Position numbers and translations under genes: made by a program. A DNA stretch of 64,000 nt, taken from assembly GCF_003350475.1 (NCBI RefSeq), contig NZ_QQAV01000001.1, forward strand, positions 550,836 to 614,835, read 5' to 3'. Every line of letters starts with the position of its first letter. The first letter of the stretch is position 1. Under the pieces are notes generated by a model. It was not told the origin of the DNA and ran no database searches. It saw only the letters and a program-made list of their open reading frames with translations. Shown here piece after piece: positions 57,553-62,822 of the stretch. Source of the stretch: Pseudacidovorax intermedius (lineage in GTDB: Bacteria > Pseudomonadota > Gammaproteobacteria > Burkholderiales > Burkholderiaceae_C).

Positions 57553-57640
57553 GACCGTGGGACCGTGGGACCGTGGGACCGTGGGACCGTGGGACCGTGG
57601 GACCGTGGGACCGTGGGACCGTGGGACCGTGGGACCGTGC
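57553..57640. repeat. 11 tandem copies of GACCGTGG (minisatellite)
   Basis: Ten identical 8-bp units followed by one unit with a final C (gaccgtgc) and a partial one (gaccgta). The array lies between the two 172-bp inverted repeat arms. The 8-bp unit is not a multiple of three, and no reading frame uses it. Copy number is likely to vary between strains. Confidence 0.97.
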
Positions 57641-57696
57641 GACCGTAAGGCCGCGGAGTCCTCGCGGGTCGTAATGGAGGGCCAGTCGACCCCAGA

Positions 57697-58201: not shown

Positions 58202-61165
58202 TCAGCCTTCCAGGTTCTTGCCCACGATCCCCGCCAGGTCGAACATCGACACCTGGTCACGACCGAACAGCGGACGCAGCTTGTCGTCGGCGTTGATGGC
58301 GCGCTTGTCCTTGGCGTCCTGCAGGCCGTTGGCCTTGATGTAGTCCCACAGCTTCTTGATCACCTCGGGCCGCGCCACCGGCTCCGGCCCGATCACCGCC
58401 GCGAGCGCCGCACTGGGCTGACGCCCCGCGGCGGCGCTGGTCTTGCGCGGGGCCTTGGGGGCCGCCGCCTTCTTGGCCGCCGGGGCCTTGGCGGCGGTCT
58501 TCGTCGCACTCTTTGCAGCCGCCTTCTTGGCAGCCGGCACTCGGGCCGGCGCGGCCGATGCCGTCTTGCGCGGCGGGAACTTGGAGGCGCGCGGCTCGAA
58601 CTCGAACGTCACCTTGCCCTCTTCCGCATTCCATGCCAGGAAGGCCTTGAAGGACCGGCGCGTGCGCATGCTGACGAACTTGTCGAGCAGGTCCGTCTTG
58701 CCGGTGGCCAGCAGCTTGCGCATCTGCTCCTCCTCCACCGGCTGCTGCAGGATCACCTTGCCGGTCTTGAAGTCGCAGCTGGGCGTGGGATGGTCGGCCG
58801 TGGGCACCGAACGCTCGCACACATAGTTGGCGCCCAGCTCGTGCACACCCGCACCGCACTTGGGGCAAGGGCCCAGCGAGGGCGCGGCGCCGAAGTCGAT
58901 GATCTCGCCCGTCTCGGCCGGGTCCTTGCCGTCGTCGCCGAAGTCGAACTCCAGCTTCCAGTTGTGGTCCTCGTCGCTGTGCTTGAGCACAATCTCGGCC
59001 ACGAAGGGCCAGCCGGCCTTGGAGCGGAAGCCTTCCAGCGGGCCGATGTGCTTGTCCCGCACCAGCTGCTCGGCCTCGGCCAGCTCGAAAGTGCGGCCGG
59101 CCGGCGACTTGGTGAAGGAGAAGCCGCAGGCGTCCTGGCCGCTGCCCGACTTGCCGGTGCAGGCGAAGCGCCGGTAGTTCTCGCGCACGATGCCGCCGCA
59201 GTTGGGGCACGGCGCGGCCAGCGTGGCGTAGTCGCCGGGCACGGTGTCGCGGTCGTATTCCTTGGCCTTGCGCACGATGTGCTCGGTCATGCCCGCGATC
59301 TGGCGCATGAACTCGTCGCGGCTCAGGTGGCCCTGCTCCATCTGCGCCAGCTTGTGCTCCCACTCGCCAGTCAGCTCGGGCTTGGAGAGCTCCTCCACGC
59401 CCAGCCCGCGCAGCAGCGTCATCAGCTGGAAGGCCTTGGCGGTGGGGATCAGCTCGCGGCCCTCGCGCAGCATGTACTTCTCGTTGAGCAGGCCTTCGAT
59501 GATGGCGGCGCGGGTGGCGGGCGTGCCCAGGCCCTTCTCCTGCATGGCCTCGCGCAGCTCGTCGTCGTCCACCAGCTTGCCGGCGCCTTCCATGGCGCCC
59601 AGCAGCGTGGCTTCGCTATAGCGCGCGGGCGGGCGGGTCTTGAGGGCCTTGACCTCGGCGCTCTCGGTGTTCACCTGCTCGCCGGGCTTGACGGGCACCA
59701 GCGTCTTGCCGTCCTTGTCGTCGTCGGTGGCGGCTTCCTTGCCGTAGATGGCGAGCCAGCCCGGCTTGACCAGCACCTTGCCGTCGGAGCGGAAGCTGTG
59801 CTTCTTGCCCGCTGCCTCGACGGTGCTGATGCGCGTCGTGACCTGGAATTCGGCGCTCGGAAAGAACACCGACAGGAAGCGCCGCACCACGAAGTCGTAG
59901 AGCTTCTGCTCGGCGTCCGACAGGCCGCTGGGCGCCTGCAGCGTGGGAATGATGGCGAAGTGGTCCGACACCTTGGCGTTGTCGAAGACGCGCTTAGTGG
60001 GCTTGACGTAGTTCTGGTCGATGGCCTGCTGCGCGAAGGGCGCCAGGTGACGCATGCCGCTGTTGGCGAGCATGCCCAGGGTGTCCTTCACCACGGGCAG
60101 GTAGTCCTCGGGCAGGGCGCGCGAGTCGGTCCGCGGATAGGTCAGCGCCTTGTGCCGCTCGTACAGCGACTGGGCCAGCGCCAGCGTGGTCTTGGCCGAG
60201 AAGCCGAAGCGGCTGTTGGCCTCGCGCTGCAGCGAAGTGAGGTCGAACAGCAGCGGGCTGGCCTGGGTGGTGGGCTTGCTCTCTTCCGTGACGGTGGCGG
60301 GCCGGCCGCGCACCGCCTCGGCGATGGCACGGGCCTCGGCCGCGGTCCACAGGCGGTCGGCGCGCTGCTCGGGGTCGGGTTCGCCATTGGGAAGCAGCGG
60401 GGCGTTGGCCTTCTTCCAGGCCGGGTCGAAATACTTGCCCGGGTACTGGCCGGCCTGCGCCTGGAAGACCGCGTGGATCTCCCAGTAGTCGCGGCTGACG
60501 AACTTGCGGATCTGCTCCTCGCGCTCGACCACGATGGACAGCGTGGGCGTCTGCACCCGGCCGACGGTGGTCAGGAAGAAGCCGCCGTCGCGCGAGTTGA
60601 AGGCCGTCATGGCCCGCGTGCCGTTGATGCCCACCAGCCAGTCGGCCTCGGAGCGCGAGCGGGCGGCATCGGCCAGGCCCTGCATCTCGCGCTCGGAGCG
60701 CAGGCGGTCGAAGCCGTCGCGGATGGCCTGCGGCGTCATCGACTGCAGCCAGAGCCGGCGGATCGGCTTGCCCAGTGGCTTGGCGCCGCCGGCGTACTGC
60801 TCGATCAGGCGGAAGATCAGCTCGCCCTCGCGGCCCGCGTCGCAGGCGTTGACCAGTTGCGTGACGTCCTTGCGGCGCGCCAGGCGCACCACGGCGTTCA
60901 GGCGGCCCTTGGTCTTGTCCACGGGCTTGAGGTCGAAGTGCGGCGGGATCACCGGCAGGTGCGCAAAGCTCCACTTGCCGCGCTTGACGTCGTACTGCTC
61001 GGGGGCCTGGATCTCCACCAGGTGGCCCACGGCGCTGGTCACGACGTAGTTGTCGTTCTCGAAATGCTCGTCGTGCTTGTCGAACTTGCCGGACACGGGC
61101 GTGAGCGCGCGCACGATGTCCTGCGCCACCGACGGCTTTTCCGCTATCACCAAGGTCTTCGTCAT
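58202..61165 (-). CDS. topB: DNA topoisomerase III with C-terminal SWIB domain
   Basis: A 987-residue type IA topoisomerase. The TOPRIM domain starts TKTLVIAEKPSVAQDIVRAL and includes CDAGREGELIFRLI (about 108-121). The catalytic Tyr is Y343 in KALTYPRTDSRALP. Two Cys-rich zinc motifs follow (CPNCGGIV...CTGKSG, CPKCGAGV...CERSVP). A Lys/Ala-rich, histone-H1-like linker (about 860-915) leads to a C-terminal SWIB/MDM2 domain of about 70 residues (EVIKKLWDYIKANGLQDAKD, KLRPLFGRDQVSMFDLAGI). The enzyme relaxes and decatenates DNA; the SWIB domain is a chromatin-type protein interaction module. The start MTKTL was preferred over MRDFQ five codons upstream. It is divergent from the SET-domain gene. 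Confidence 0.95.
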   Translation of the reverse strand: MTKTLVIAEKPSVAQDIVRALTPVSGKFDKHDEHFENDNYVVTSAVGHLVEIQAPEQYDVKRGKWSFAHLPVIPPHFDLKPVDKTKGRLNAVVRLARRKDVTQLVNACDAGREGELIFRLIEQYAGGAKPLGKPIRRLWLQSMTPQAIRDGFDRLRSEREMQGLADAARSRSEADWLVGINGTRAMTAFNSRDGGFFLTTVGRVQTPTLSIVVEREEQIRKFVSRDYWEIHAVFQAQAGQYPGKYFDPAWKKANAPLLPNGEPDPEQRADRLWTAAEARAIAEAVRGRPATVTEESKPTTQASPLLFDLTSLQREANSRFGFSAKTTLALAQSLYERHKALTYPRTDSRALPEDYLPVVKDTLGMLANSGMRHLAPFAQQAIDQNYVKPTKRVFDNAKVSDHFAIIPTLQAPSGLSDAEQKLYDFVVRRFLSVFFPSAEFQVTTRISTVEAAGKKHSFRSDGKVLVKPGWLAIYGKEAATDDDKDGKTLVPVKPGEQVNTESAEVKALKTRPPARYSEATLLGAMEGAGKLVDDDELREAMQEKGLGTPATRAAIIEGLLNEKYMLREGRELIPTAKAFQLMTLLRGLGVEELSKPELTGEWEHKLAQMEQGHLSRDEFMRQIAGMTEHIVRKAKEYDRDTVPGDYATLAAPCPNCGGIVRENYRRFACTGKSGSGQDACGFSFTKSPAGRTFELAEAEQLVRDKHIGPLEGFRSKAGWPFVAEIVLKHSDEDHNWKLEFDFGDDGKDPAETGEIIDFGAAPSLGPCPKCGAGVHELGANYVCERSVPTADHPTPSCDFKTGKVILQQPVEEEQMRKLLATGKTDLLDKFVSMRTRRSFKAFLAWNAEEGKVTFEFEPRASKFPPRKTASAAPARVPAAKKAAAKSATKTAAKAPAAKKAAAPKAPRKTSAAAGRQPSAALAAVIGPEPVARPEVIKKLWDYIKANGLQDAKDKRAINADDKLRPLFGRDQVSMFDLAGIVGKNLEG

Positions 61166-61298
61166 CTGGAAATCTCTCATGGGCAAGAGCCGCCGGGGGC
61201 CCGGACGGACCGGCACCTTCGGGGACAAAACCCCGGCGCCCACGACGGGCGGCGGCGGCCGGCGACGCGCCGGACGGCTCTCTATACTCTGCGCCTCT

Positions 61299-61331
61299 CG
61301 CGCACGTGCGCATGCGCGCACATGTGCACAT
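61299..61331. promoter_or_regulatory. 33-nt perfect alternating purine-pyrimidine tract
   Basis: From c61299 to t61331 every base alternates pyrimidine and purine, mostly CG, CA/TG steps. Such a tract is a classical candidate for left-handed Z-DNA under negative supercoiling. It lies between topB and the SET-domain gene, starting 11 bp after a TATACT (-10-like, 61283-61288), so it is probably in the SET gene 5' leader. The structural effect is inference. Confidence 0.7.
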
Positions 61332-61353
61332 CTCAAGCTATCAGAACTCGGCG

Positions 61354-62013
61354 ATGCCCTCCAAATCCCCTTCTTCGCCCGCACCCTCTGCCGGCCGCCG
61401 CATCCAGACCCGGCGCTCCGGCGTGCATGGCAAGGGGGTGTTCGCGACGCAGGACATCGCGGCCGGCGAGCTGGTGATCGAGTACACCGGCGAGGTGATC
61501 AGCTGGACCGAGGCGCTGCGACGCCATCCGCACGACCCGGCCCAGCCCAACCACACCTTCTACTTCCACATCGATGACAAGCATGTGATCGACGGGAAGG
61601 TGCACGGCAACTCGGCCAAGTGGATCAACCACTCCTGCGGGCCCAACTGCGAGACCGAGGTCGAGGACGGCCGCGTATTCATCCGTGCCCTGCGCGACAT
61701 CGCCGCGGGCGAAGAGCTCAACTACGACTATGGCCTGGTGATCGACTCGCCGTACACGCCCGAGCTGTTGGCCGACTTCCCCTGCTGGTGCGGCTCGCCG
61801 CAATGCCGCGGCACGCTGCTGGCGCCGCCGGAGGACGCCGAGGCCGTGCCGGGCAAGGGCGGCAAGAAGAAGAAAGCGAAGAAGGCCAAGAAGGCCGGGT
61901 CCGGCAAGAAGGCGGGCAAGGCGGAGAAGTCCGCCAAGTCGGGCAAGAAGGCGGGCGGCAAGGCCGACACCGGGGCCAAGCCCCGCAAGAAGAAGGCGAA
62001 GGACAAGGCCTGA
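61354..62013 (+). CDS. SET-domain lysine methyltransferase-like protein with lysine-rich tail
   Basis: A 219-residue protein. Residues 10-155 form a SET domain: SGVHGKGVFATQDIAAGELV, IEYTGEVISW, the SAM/active-site GNSAKWINHSCGPNC, the catalytic-Tyr motif EELNYDYG, and a post-SET Cys cluster CWCGSPQCRGTLL. All key residues are present, so S-adenosylmethionine-dependent lysine methylation is expected. The last 60 residues are a Lys/Ala/Gly-rich tail (KKAKKAKKAGSGKKAGKAEK) like histone H1 or its bacterial mimics. Its stop overlaps the birA start (TGATG). The ATG at 61354 was chosen; a GTG at 61306 inside the alternating tract is possible. Confidence 0.9.
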   Translation: MPSKSPSSPAPSAGRRIQTRRSGVHGKGVFATQDIAAGELVIEYTGEVISWTEALRRHPHDPAQPNHTFYFHIDDKHVIDGKVHGNSAKWINHSCGPNCETEVEDGRVFIRALRDIAAGEELNYDYGLVIDSPYTPELLADFPCWCGSPQCRGTLLAPPEDAEAVPGKGGKKKKAKKAKKAGSGKKAGKAEKSAKSGKKAGGKADTGAKPRKKKAKDKA

Positions 62014-62822
62014 TGGCCGCCATGTCGCAGGTCTGGCCCGTCGACGCGCTGCAGCAGGCCCTGGCCGCGCAGCTGCCCAGCCTGCGCGTCGAGGTGGTGG
62101 ACGAGATAGCCTCCACCAACACCGAGCTCATGCGCCGCGCCCGTGCCGGCGACACCCGCGCCGTGCTGCTGGTGGCCGAGCGCCAGACGGCCGGCCGCGG
62201 ACGCCTGGGACGGCAGTGGGAAGGTGGCGTGCCCCAGGAGCGCGCCGCCTCGCTGATGTTCTCCCTCTCCCTGCCGCTGGCGCCCCGCAGCTGGTCGGGG
62301 CTGTCCCTGGCGGTGGGCGTGAGCGCAGCCGAATCGCTGGACCCGCTGGGCAACGCCGGCGTGCAGATCAAGTGGCCCAACGACCTGTGGGTTCAGGACC
62401 GCAAGCTGGCCGGCATCCTGATCGAGACCGCCTCCACCGGCCACGCGACGGCGGCGCCGCGCCAGGTGGTGATCGGCATCGGCATCAACATCGGCCCGCG
62501 GCCCGCCGACGCCATGCGCACGCCGCCGGCCTGGGTGCGCCAGTGGGCGCCGCAGGCCGAACCGGCCAGCGTGCTGCTGGCCGTGGCGCCAGCGCTGCTC
62601 GCCGAGGTCCTGCGCTTCGCCGACGAGGGCTTCGCACCCGTTGCTCCGCGTTTCGCGGCGCGCGACGCGCTGCTGGGCCGCGATGTGCACCTGAGCGACG
62701 GCACCGCCGGCCGCTGTGAGGGCGTGGCGCCCGACGGAGAACTGCGCATCGCCACCACTGCCGGCCTGCGGCTGGTCGATAGCGCCGAGGTCAGCGTGCG
62801 GCCCTTGGGCCAGGCCTTCTGA
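62013..62822 (+). CDS. birA: biotin-[acetyl-CoA-carboxylase] ligase, no HTH domain
   Basis: A 269-residue biotin protein ligase that attaches biotin to the carboxylase carrier protein. The catalytic domain is complete: EIASTNTELMRRARAGDTRA, the ATP/biotin loop ERQTAGRGRLGRQWEGG, KWPNDLWVQDRKLAGILIET and GIGINIGPRP, then the SH3-like C-terminal domain (ALLGRDVHLSDGTAGRCEGV). The N-terminal winged helix of the bifunctional E. coli BirA repressor is absent, so this form should not bind the bio operator. It overlaps the SET gene stop by one base and is followed 8 bp later by a small membrane protein gene. Confidence 0.95.
   Translation: MAAMSQVWPVDALQQALAAQLPSLRVEVVDEIASTNTELMRRARAGDTRAVLLVAERQTAGRGRLGRQWEGGVPQERAASLMFSLSLPLAPRSWSGLSLAVGVSAAESLDPLGNAGVQIKWPNDLWVQDRKLAGILIETASTGHATAAPRQVVIGIGINIGPRPADAMRTPPAWVRQWAPQAEPASVLLAVAPALLAEVLRFADEGFAPVAPRFAARDALLGRDVHLSDGTAGRCEGVAPDGELRIATTAGLRLVDSAEVSVRPLGQAF

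Follow-up and report, generated by a model that had tools for sequence, protein, structure and literature searches.

An apparently selected alternating purine-pyrimidine tract between divergent topB and SET-domain genes as a possible supercoiling-sensing switch

Gene content and conservation of the topB-SET locus

In the window, by which we mean the whole 64,000-nucleotide stretch analysed, topB on the minus strand diverges from an intact SET-domain gene on the plus strand, and the start of a birA-like gene overlaps the SET stop by 1 base (Table 1). The likely start of topB is the ATG at 61165, rather than the GTG at 61384 of the raw open reading frame, and that of the SET gene is likewise probably the ATG at 61354, as farther upstream the frame crosses the intergenic tract described below.

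Table 1. Features of the topB-SET-birA locus (positions in the window)
Feature	Position	Strand	Basis
topB, DNA topoisomerase III with C-terminal SWIB domain, 987 aa	58202..61165	-	NF011313 and Pfam
SWIB/MDM2 domain of TopB	58217..58420	-	PF02201, 1.9e-23
Lys/Ala-rich linker of TopB	58430..58582 (approximate bounds, by eye)	-	sequence
-10-like box TATACT toward SET, 10 bp before the tract	61283..61288	+	motif conservation; putative promoter
33-bp alternating purine-pyrimidine (Z-DNA-type) tract	61299..61331	.	between topB and SET
Extended -10-like box TGATAGCTT toward topB	61335..61343	-	motif conservation; putative promoter
SET-domain protein lysine methyltransferase (predicted), 219 aa from ATG 61354	61354..62013	+	PF00856, 1.2e-26
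SET domain proper	61429..61734	+	Pfam coordinates
Post-SET Cys motif CWCGxxxC	61783..61806	+	invariant Cys in homologues; aligns with KMT2A
Lys-rich C-terminal tail of SET (differs among relatives)	61822..62010	+	sequence
birA-like biotin-protein ligase	62013..62822	+	PF03099, 8.2e-17

TopB matched the NCBIfam model NF011313/PRK14724 "DNA topoisomerase III" with 1935.9 bits (cut-off 1088) over model positions 1-987 of 988. This whole-model match above the curated cut-off, SWIB end included, makes TopB a member of that family, from which we saw no difference. The fusion of SWIB to topoisomerase III is thus already known as a named NCBIfam family; in the open-licence literature, we found no paper on topoisomerase III together with SWIB. 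Pfam assigned the Topoisom_bac, Toprim, Toprim_Crpt and SWIB domains, and the first-pass annotation had indeed correctly described a SWIB end preceded by a Lys/Ala-rich linker. This linker measures 42-75 aa in relatives (59 loci), with medians of 22% Lys and 37% Ala. The SWIB domain itself is dispensable, as it is missing in three loci (G019, G021 and L092) that nevertheless keep both the gene pair and the alternating tract, and it was therefore rejected as what ties topB to SET.

The SET protein covered the complete PF00856 domain (model 1-105 of 105, 93.6 bits, cut-off 22.4), and was the only PF00856 match in the window genome. Its closest solved chain is the SET domain of KMT2A/MLL1 (8.4e-29, PDB). 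The residues of GxG, WINHxC and ELxYDY, together with those of the post-SET CWCGxxxC motif, were invariant across 12 aligned homologues, in agreement with the annotated intact SET domain, and among them are the residues that we take to be catalytic. The protein thus resembles the PF00856 methyltransferases and the KMT2A SET domain in its complete domain, motif residues and post-SET Cys motif, but differs from them as a stand-alone bacterial protein with no second Pfam domain over the cut-off, encoded by a gene paired with topB. The Lys-rich tail, also annotated at first pass, is present in the window protein, but is not a feature of the family: over 80 loci the tail ranged from 4 to 105 aa (median 25) with a median Lys fraction of 0.25, and the eight tails lowest in Lys were short, Lys-poor and from several genera. 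The tail was accordingly ruled out as a conserved feature.

The divergent pair, in contrast, whose conservation in relatives had been proposed as a check, was kept in every one of the 26 fetched family genomes and in 77 of the 80 named loci, the remaining three lying at contig ends; birA lies downstream of SET in 79 of the 80. The host family comprises soil and water bacteria, with culturable members including Variovorax. In f6, another family of the same order, the SET gene comes after gyrB and meets topB tail to tail (gyrB-SET-topB), and in f32 a gyrB-SET pair lies near the beginning of the chromosome record. SET is thus found beside topB in families f1 and f6 and beside gyrB in f6 and f32, which provides a lead on the role of SET proteins in non-pathogenic bacteria. 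As a general rule, however, an association of SET with topoisomerase genes was rejected, since the gene was not seen adjoining topB in 19 of the 25 genomes of the order in which SET matched strongly, and in 11 additional loci the scanned neighbours mainly encoded metabolic enzymes or proteins without an assigned family. The arrangement could also reflect ordinary gene-order conservation from an origin-proximal neighbourhood (gyrB, SET, topB) without functional coupling, as the orders in f6 and f32 and the conservation of birA as strict as that of topB would suggest; we consider this quite improbable, because it leaves unexplained the tract kept between the genes.

A chromatin module and the comparison with Chlamydia

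A complex of SET, SWIB and topoisomerase has already been proposed for Chlamydiae (PMC6426960, in excerpt). As in Chlamydia according to that excerpt, a SET protein and a SWIB domain fused to a type IA topoisomerase co-occur here with an H1-like protein in the cell: the window genome encodes an HC2-like H1-type protein (PF07382, 48.5 bits, cut-off 40), while 4 of 14 control genomes gave weaker, sub-cut-off matches. Unlike in Chlamydia, SWIB is fused here to topoisomerase III rather than to topoisomerase I, both SWIB and the SET tail are dispensable, and a Z-type tract occupies the promoter. The genes here are adjacent and divergent. The annotation had further stated that the chlamydial SET protein NUE acts on histone-like proteins; in the accessible part of PMC2904774, NUE automethylates and Hc1 was not methylated, whereas another study cited there found that a NUE homologue did methylate Hc1.

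It had also been put forward that the pair forms a DNA-compaction unit, in which SET methylates Lys-rich tails (its own, the TopB linker or H1-like proteins) and to which the tract would be secondary. The conserved pair, the intact catalytic motifs, the adjacency of SET to topB in f1 and f6 (and to gyrB in f6 and f32), the Lys/Ala linker in the TopB of relatives, the HC2-like protein and the automethylation of NUE are all consistent with such a module. On the other hand, the SET tail is variable, three loci lack SWIB with the pair intact, and SET was not seen beside topB in most genomes of the order that gave a strong SET match, so that the proposal survives in part and, as an account of the locus, appears unlikely. 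Candidate substrates of SET would be the TopB linker, two further SWIB-domain matches in the window genome and the HC2-like protein.

The alternating tract in the shared promoter region

The most striking conserved link between topB and SET is their promoter region. The 33-bp tract is the sole alternating purine-pyrimidine run of at least 27 bp in the 5.98-Mb assembly, and in relatives (77 loci, 1.23 Mb) 67 of the 68 runs of at least 20 bp lay in the topB-SET intergenic region, which makes up 1.4% of the bases, establishing that the tract is nearly unique in the DNA scanned. The longest run per intergenic region (78 regions) had a median of 27.5 bp (8-53), against a mean of 9.3 in dinucleotide shuffles, and a run of at least 20 bp occurred in 62 of the 78 regions versus 16 of 15,600 shuffles; the long alternating run therefore exceeds chance. 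Runs reached at least 24 bp in 22 of the 26 family genomes, and 30-53 bp, unbroken, in many loci. The locus can nevertheless do without a long unbroken tract, since the runs were shorter than 15 bp in 5 of the 77 named loci and in G022, and 15-19 bp in G015, G016 and G023. In loci where topB and the tract are separated by an additional minus-strand gene, the tract remains at the divergent promoter. The first-pass annotation did not include the tract.

Two -10-like boxes, which we regard as putative promoters from their motif conservation, flank the tract face to face. Toward SET, all 67 intergenic regions whose run reached at least 19 bp had TA[CT]A[AC]T in the roughly 60 bp upstream of the tract (shuffles, 2.3%), and in 54 of them it ended 6-12 bp before the tract; no conserved -35 element was found for this box. 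Toward topB, 66 of the 67 regions had A...TA.CA (plus strand) no more than about 60 bp from the tract (shuffles, 6.7%).

Among relatives, the sequence of the tract drifts while its alternation is maintained. When the partner sequence was left free, the substitutions amounted to 61 transitions and 21 transversions in the tract versus 105 and 167 in the flanks (median of 200 random pairings). With pairs picked on flank identity alone, transversions were about fourfold rarer in the tract (2.1% versus 8.1%, median of 300), a depletion that still gave p=0.003 when tested against half of the rate in the flanks (median of 300 pairings); p was below 0.05 in 91% of 300 random pairings and rose to 0.51 in the worst. 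An early count of 38:7 in the tract versus 26:41 in the flanks was discarded as evidence, because it included only pairs with long runs in both sequences and its outcome was largely built in. The ratio in the tract was 18:21 in the seven pairs whose partner lacked a 17-bp run; this fits lost constraint but equally the mere selection of intact tracts. That selection acts on the alternation, and not on the sequence itself, is well supported by these comparisons of relatives.

A mutational origin (dinucleotide slippage combined with a transition bias in mutation), or a role as coding sequence or in an RNA leader, could be considered, as alternation survives any transition, transitions are commoner in the tract than in its flanks, and the presumed 5' leader and the tract overlap. 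This is very improbable in view of the rarity of transversions and the near absence of such runs elsewhere. Tandem repeats made up at most 52% of any of 50 distinct tracts (median 36%), which argues against a simple repeat. The hairpin potential did not exceed that of alternation-preserving shuffles (mean z -0.18, none of 48 below -1.65), so that the absence of hairpin selection is well supported and the tract was rejected as a palindrome, hairpin or RNA element; it was also rejected as N-terminal coding sequence of SET, since the SET frame was open through the tract in just 47 of 62 regions (the other frames in 40 and 28).

A proposed supercoiling-sensing switch

DNA in which purines and pyrimidines alternate is the textbook B-to-Z switch, turning into left-handed Z-DNA under sufficient negative supercoiling. 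By our provisional estimate, the window tract would flip at a superhelical density of -0.032 (-0.039 assuming a 5-kb domain) and the tracts of relatives at a median of -0.034; on the same provisional basis, the tract was estimated to flip more easily than every other alternating run of its locus in 69 of 76 cases. Both in-phase TA steps (48 versus 73.6 predicted by composition) and CG steps (318 versus 334.7) were rarer than predicted, indicating that maximal Z-propensity is not what is selected.

We tentatively propose, at somewhat less than even confidence, that the tract serves a topoisomerase promoter as a switch that senses supercoiling. topB and SET would form a conserved divergent unit, with a torsion-sensing element in the promoter region that they share. 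Excess negative supercoiling, either global or left by divergent transcription, would flip the tract; as it lies between, and nearly touches, the box toward SET-birA and that toward topB, the flip would alter the ability of RNA polymerase to open either start site and thus shift topB and SET expression. Topoisomerase III removes negative supercoils, and the role would therefore likely be homeostatic feedback through this enzyme. We infer Z-DNA formation at the tract in vivo, regulation of topB by it and the sign of the effect.

Alternatively, the tract may act in B-form: its alternating YR/RY steps would make the duplex unusually flexible and so guide a nucleoid protein or RNA polymerase to its place at the two overlapping promoters, with shape rather than Z-DNA under selection. 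The drift of base identity under maintained alternation, the lack of CG enrichment, contrary to maximal Z-propensity, and the -10-like boxes abutting the tract on both sides would suit this explanation. Nevertheless, the unbroken runs of 30-53 bp seem longer than a bend or protein site requires, and runs of at least 20 bp are nearly absent elsewhere in the scanned DNA, unlike general nucleoid-protein sites, and we regard a B-form role as doubtful.

The supercoiling-sensing tract would resemble known Z-DNA-forming and supercoiling-sensitive promoter elements in placing alternating DNA near presumed transcription starts, but is distinguished from them by being kept family-wide at one locus, by standing alone at its length in the window genome, and by its position at a topoisomerase gene. 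Among the matches listed from the open-licence literature (titles and abstract openings), we found no precedent for a Z-type tract at a topB promoter. In its broader form, for which our confidence is slightly lower still, the proposal extends to the whole bacterial family: selection for alternation would keep a Z-DNA switch between the promoter of a topoisomerase and that of a histone-type lysine methyltransferase, and through this switch torsion would directly set the expression of the torsion-relieving enzyme and of a second enzyme whose targets may include DNA-binding proteins. The tract thus represents a natural, apparently selected and almost singular Z-type element at a gene acting on supercoiling. 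It occurs in culturable bacteria such as Variovorax, and its many species variants offer a ready mutation series in such hosts, which makes the question of a Z-switch directly testable.

The divergent topB–SET pair and its conservation

We assessed the pair that the first-pass annotation had described as a topoisomerase III with a terminal SWIB domain after a Lys/Ala-rich linker, divergent from an intact SET gene. Both descriptions held: TopB indeed ends in a SWIB domain (Pfam, 1.9e-23), preceded by the linker as read in the sequence, and the SET domain is complete, with motif residues invariant in an alignment of 12 homologues and the KMT2A SET domain as the nearest solved chain (8.4e-29). 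No other gene in the window's genome matches PF00856 (E 0.001), and a birA-like gene lies directly 3' of the SET gene, with one base common to that gene and the SET stop.

Features of the topB–SET region and related loci (G000, the window's own assembly; C, contig; L, single locus; f, family)
Feature	Location	Strand	Assignment
8-bp tandem repeat	window 57553-57646		GACCGTGG, 11.8 copies, 98% match; downstream of topB
topB	window 58202-61165	minus	topoisomerase III, 987 aa; NCBIfam PRK14724, 1935.9 bits, model positions 1-987 of 988
Alternating tract	window 61299-61331		33 bp, perfectly alternating purine-pyrimidine; topB–SET intergenic region
SET gene	window 61354-62013	plus	PF00856, 1.2e-26, complete domain and post-SET cysteines; divergent from topB
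HC2-like H1 protein (L148)	G000:C1:69456-70019		PF07382, 48.5 bits (cut-off 40)
SWIB hit	G000:C16:46099-46314
SWIB hit	G000:C2:527868-528080
SET downstream of gyrB	L106 2846-9558		f6
SET beside BATS/radical-SAM gene	L121 2370-3398		f10; biotin-synthase-like

A contig scan with a SET alignment gave at least 587 relatives' loci, of which the best 80 were kept; several assemblies figure both among the titled (named) loci and among the sampled genomes, so the sets are not independent of each other. Within the best 80 of 587, topB was divergent beside SET in 77 loci, the other three having just 214, 127 and 579 bases of contig before SET, and birA lay 3' of SET in 79, the contig ending in the remaining one. 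The pair was also kept in all 26 genomes fetched from the window's family, f1, namely 24 from a 40-genome relatives sample (window's own included) and two, G072 and G116, from a sample of 120 genomes of the order. TopB lacked SWIB in G019, G021 and one of the 60 assessable named loci (L092, from the best 80 of 587), and its linker had medians of 22% Lys and 37% Ala (59 loci from the same 80). The SET tail, Lys-rich in the window, ranged from 4 to 105 aa in the best 80 of 587 loci and was Lys-poor in several genera.

An alternating tract between the two genes

Besides the intergenic tract, no alternating run of at least 27 bp occurs in the whole 5.98-Mb assembly. Among 77 relatives' loci (from the best 80 of 587; 1,228,526 bases), 67 of the 68 runs of at least 20 bp fell in the topB–SET intergenic region, which makes up 1.4% of the bases scanned. 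Such a run was present in 61 of these 77 named regions and one of at least 15 bp in 72, the shorter ones being L065, L072, L083, L085 and L088; dinucleotide shuffles of the intergenic regions reached 20 bp in 16 of 15,600 cases. The intergenic run was at least 24 bp in 22 of the 26 f1 genomes, and shorter in G015, G016 and G023 (15-19 bp) and G022 (9 bp). Runs of at least 24 bp anywhere were found in 22 of the 40 relatives-sample genomes, 20 of them in f1; those of the other two, G025 and G039, lie on contigs distinct from the topB contig, and in G025 also off the SET contig. No run of at least 16 bp was present in three fetched loci of family f6, in which the pair is not arranged divergently.

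Since long runs also occur elsewhere in at least G010, G011, G014, G019 and G020, the tract is strictly unique in the window's assembly and approximately so across f1. Among the matches listed, these runs of at least 24 bp were G010:C46:43945, G010:C47:192793, G014:C39/C40/C43, G011:C32:118506, G019:C3:156060 and G020:C25:11481, and several of them are tandem repeats. PMC4060949 describes Z-promoting patterns as suppressed in prokaryotes; the open-access titles and abstract openings listed gave no report of the topB–SET element.

All 67 regions with a run of at least 19 bp carried a TA[CT]A[AC]T box toward SET in the roughly 60 bp that precede the tract, ending 6-12 bp short of it in 54, and 66 of the 67 carried an A...TA.CA motif (TGnTAnnnT toward topB) within about 60 bp after it. 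The rates in shuffled windows were 2.3% and 6.7%, respectively, the real regions being related by descent, and no conserved -35 was found on the SET side in the 67 regions. Should the boxes be promoters, the two would point toward one another with the tract in between, and the tract would be the DNA that each transcribes first. With an intergenic region of 654-704 bp, L026, L036, L046, L073, L075 and L080 (mostly Polaromonas) and G016 (L102) carry an open frame on the minus strand that separates topB from the tract, recognised by eye in G016 and redoxin-like in L036 (Pfam); the tract remains at the putative divergent promoter region.

Constraint on alternation and a possible torsional switch

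Taking the longest run of each of the 77 loci (from the best 80 of 587) gave 65 distinct sequences, and sequence comparison indicates that alternation, not base sequence, is kept. In a first count, made on 18 close and mutually independent pairs, transitions and transversions stood at 38:7 within the tract vs 26:41 in the flanks (p=1.8e-6), a result largely built in because long runs were demanded of both members. With the partner's run length left free (reference run at least 20 bp; 200 random pairings), the median was 61:21 vs 105:167 (p 1.5e-8, worst 1.4e-4). When pairs were chosen by flank identity alone (70-98%; median of 300 pairings), transversions affected 15 of 712 tract sites (2.1%) vs 140 of 1718 flank sites (8.1%), and were rarer than half the flank rate, the halving allowing for the conditioned reference, with a median p of 0.003 (p<0.05 in 91% of pairings, worst 0.51). 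Seven pairs whose partner lacks a 17-bp run gave 18:21, which fits lost constraint and could also be due to chance.

The tract was rejected as a hairpin, its hairpin potential showing no excess over alternation-preserving shuffles, and as consistently coding DNA, the SET frame being open in just 47 of 62 regions vs 40 and 28 for the other frames. TA steps, the least favourable for Z-DNA, numbered 48 vs 73.6 predicted from composition, and CG steps 318 vs 334.7; both deficits may stem from CA-/TG-rich blocks and are not counted as support for Z-DNA.

From B-Z transition energies, the superhelical density that would flip the window's tract was estimated at about -0.032, or -0.039 if the domain is 5 kb long, with a median of -0.034 over 77 regions. 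In 69 of 76 cases the tract would flip more easily than any other alternating run of its own locus, alternating runs alone being scored. Since these estimates are near the free supercoiling level in bacteria, a range useful for a sensor, our preferred reading is a switch that responds to torsion at the putative topB/SET promoters, to which we would give somewhat under an even chance and in which the tract would flip from B to Z at negative supercoiling. The main rival holds that the tract acts through B-form flexibility or as a protein site.

The first-pass annotation also had chlamydial NUE acting on histone-like proteins; PMC2904774 reports automethylation by NUE and no methylation of Hc1, and cites the opposite result for a NUE homologue. 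The HC2-like H1 protein in the window's genome is a candidate SET substrate in trans. TopB accounts for one of three SWIB hits in this genome.

SET genes beside other topoisomerase genes

In the order sample of 120 genomes, 25 had a SET match (threshold 1e-15) and 58 a topB match (1e-150). SET adjoins topB in all three f1 and all three f6 genomes, the f6 pairs being tail to tail, and was not seen beside it in the other 19 of the 25, a few cases possibly being missed with SET near a contig end; three of these 19 (G045, G062, G093) had no topB match. SET lies about 4.4 kb from topB in G121. In f6 the genes run gyrB-SET-topB, with a dprA-like gene (named by eye) next in line; gyrB is visible in two of three genomes, the third being at a contig edge. 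In f32 SET follows gyrB in two of three genomes, roughly 5 kb into the chromosome record. SET lies directly downstream of gyrB in L106 (f6) and in L118 and L119 (f32), and in families other than f1 it adjoins two different topoisomerase genes. In 11 further loci, its neighbours were mainly metabolic enzymes or family-less proteins. Since SET stands beside topB or gyrB in some families and not in others, the link is recurring, not universal, and could go back to an ancestral neighbourhood near the origin.

The annotation did not know of a description of the topoisomerase III-SET link outside Chlamydia. No report of the topoisomerase III-SWIB/SET pair was found among the open-access titles and abstract openings listed, and the main text of PMC3980110, a review of bacterial SET proteins, does not contain "topoisomerase". 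Finally, SET adjoins a biotin-synthase-like gene in f10 and birA in f1, and a SET-biotin gene link is possible.
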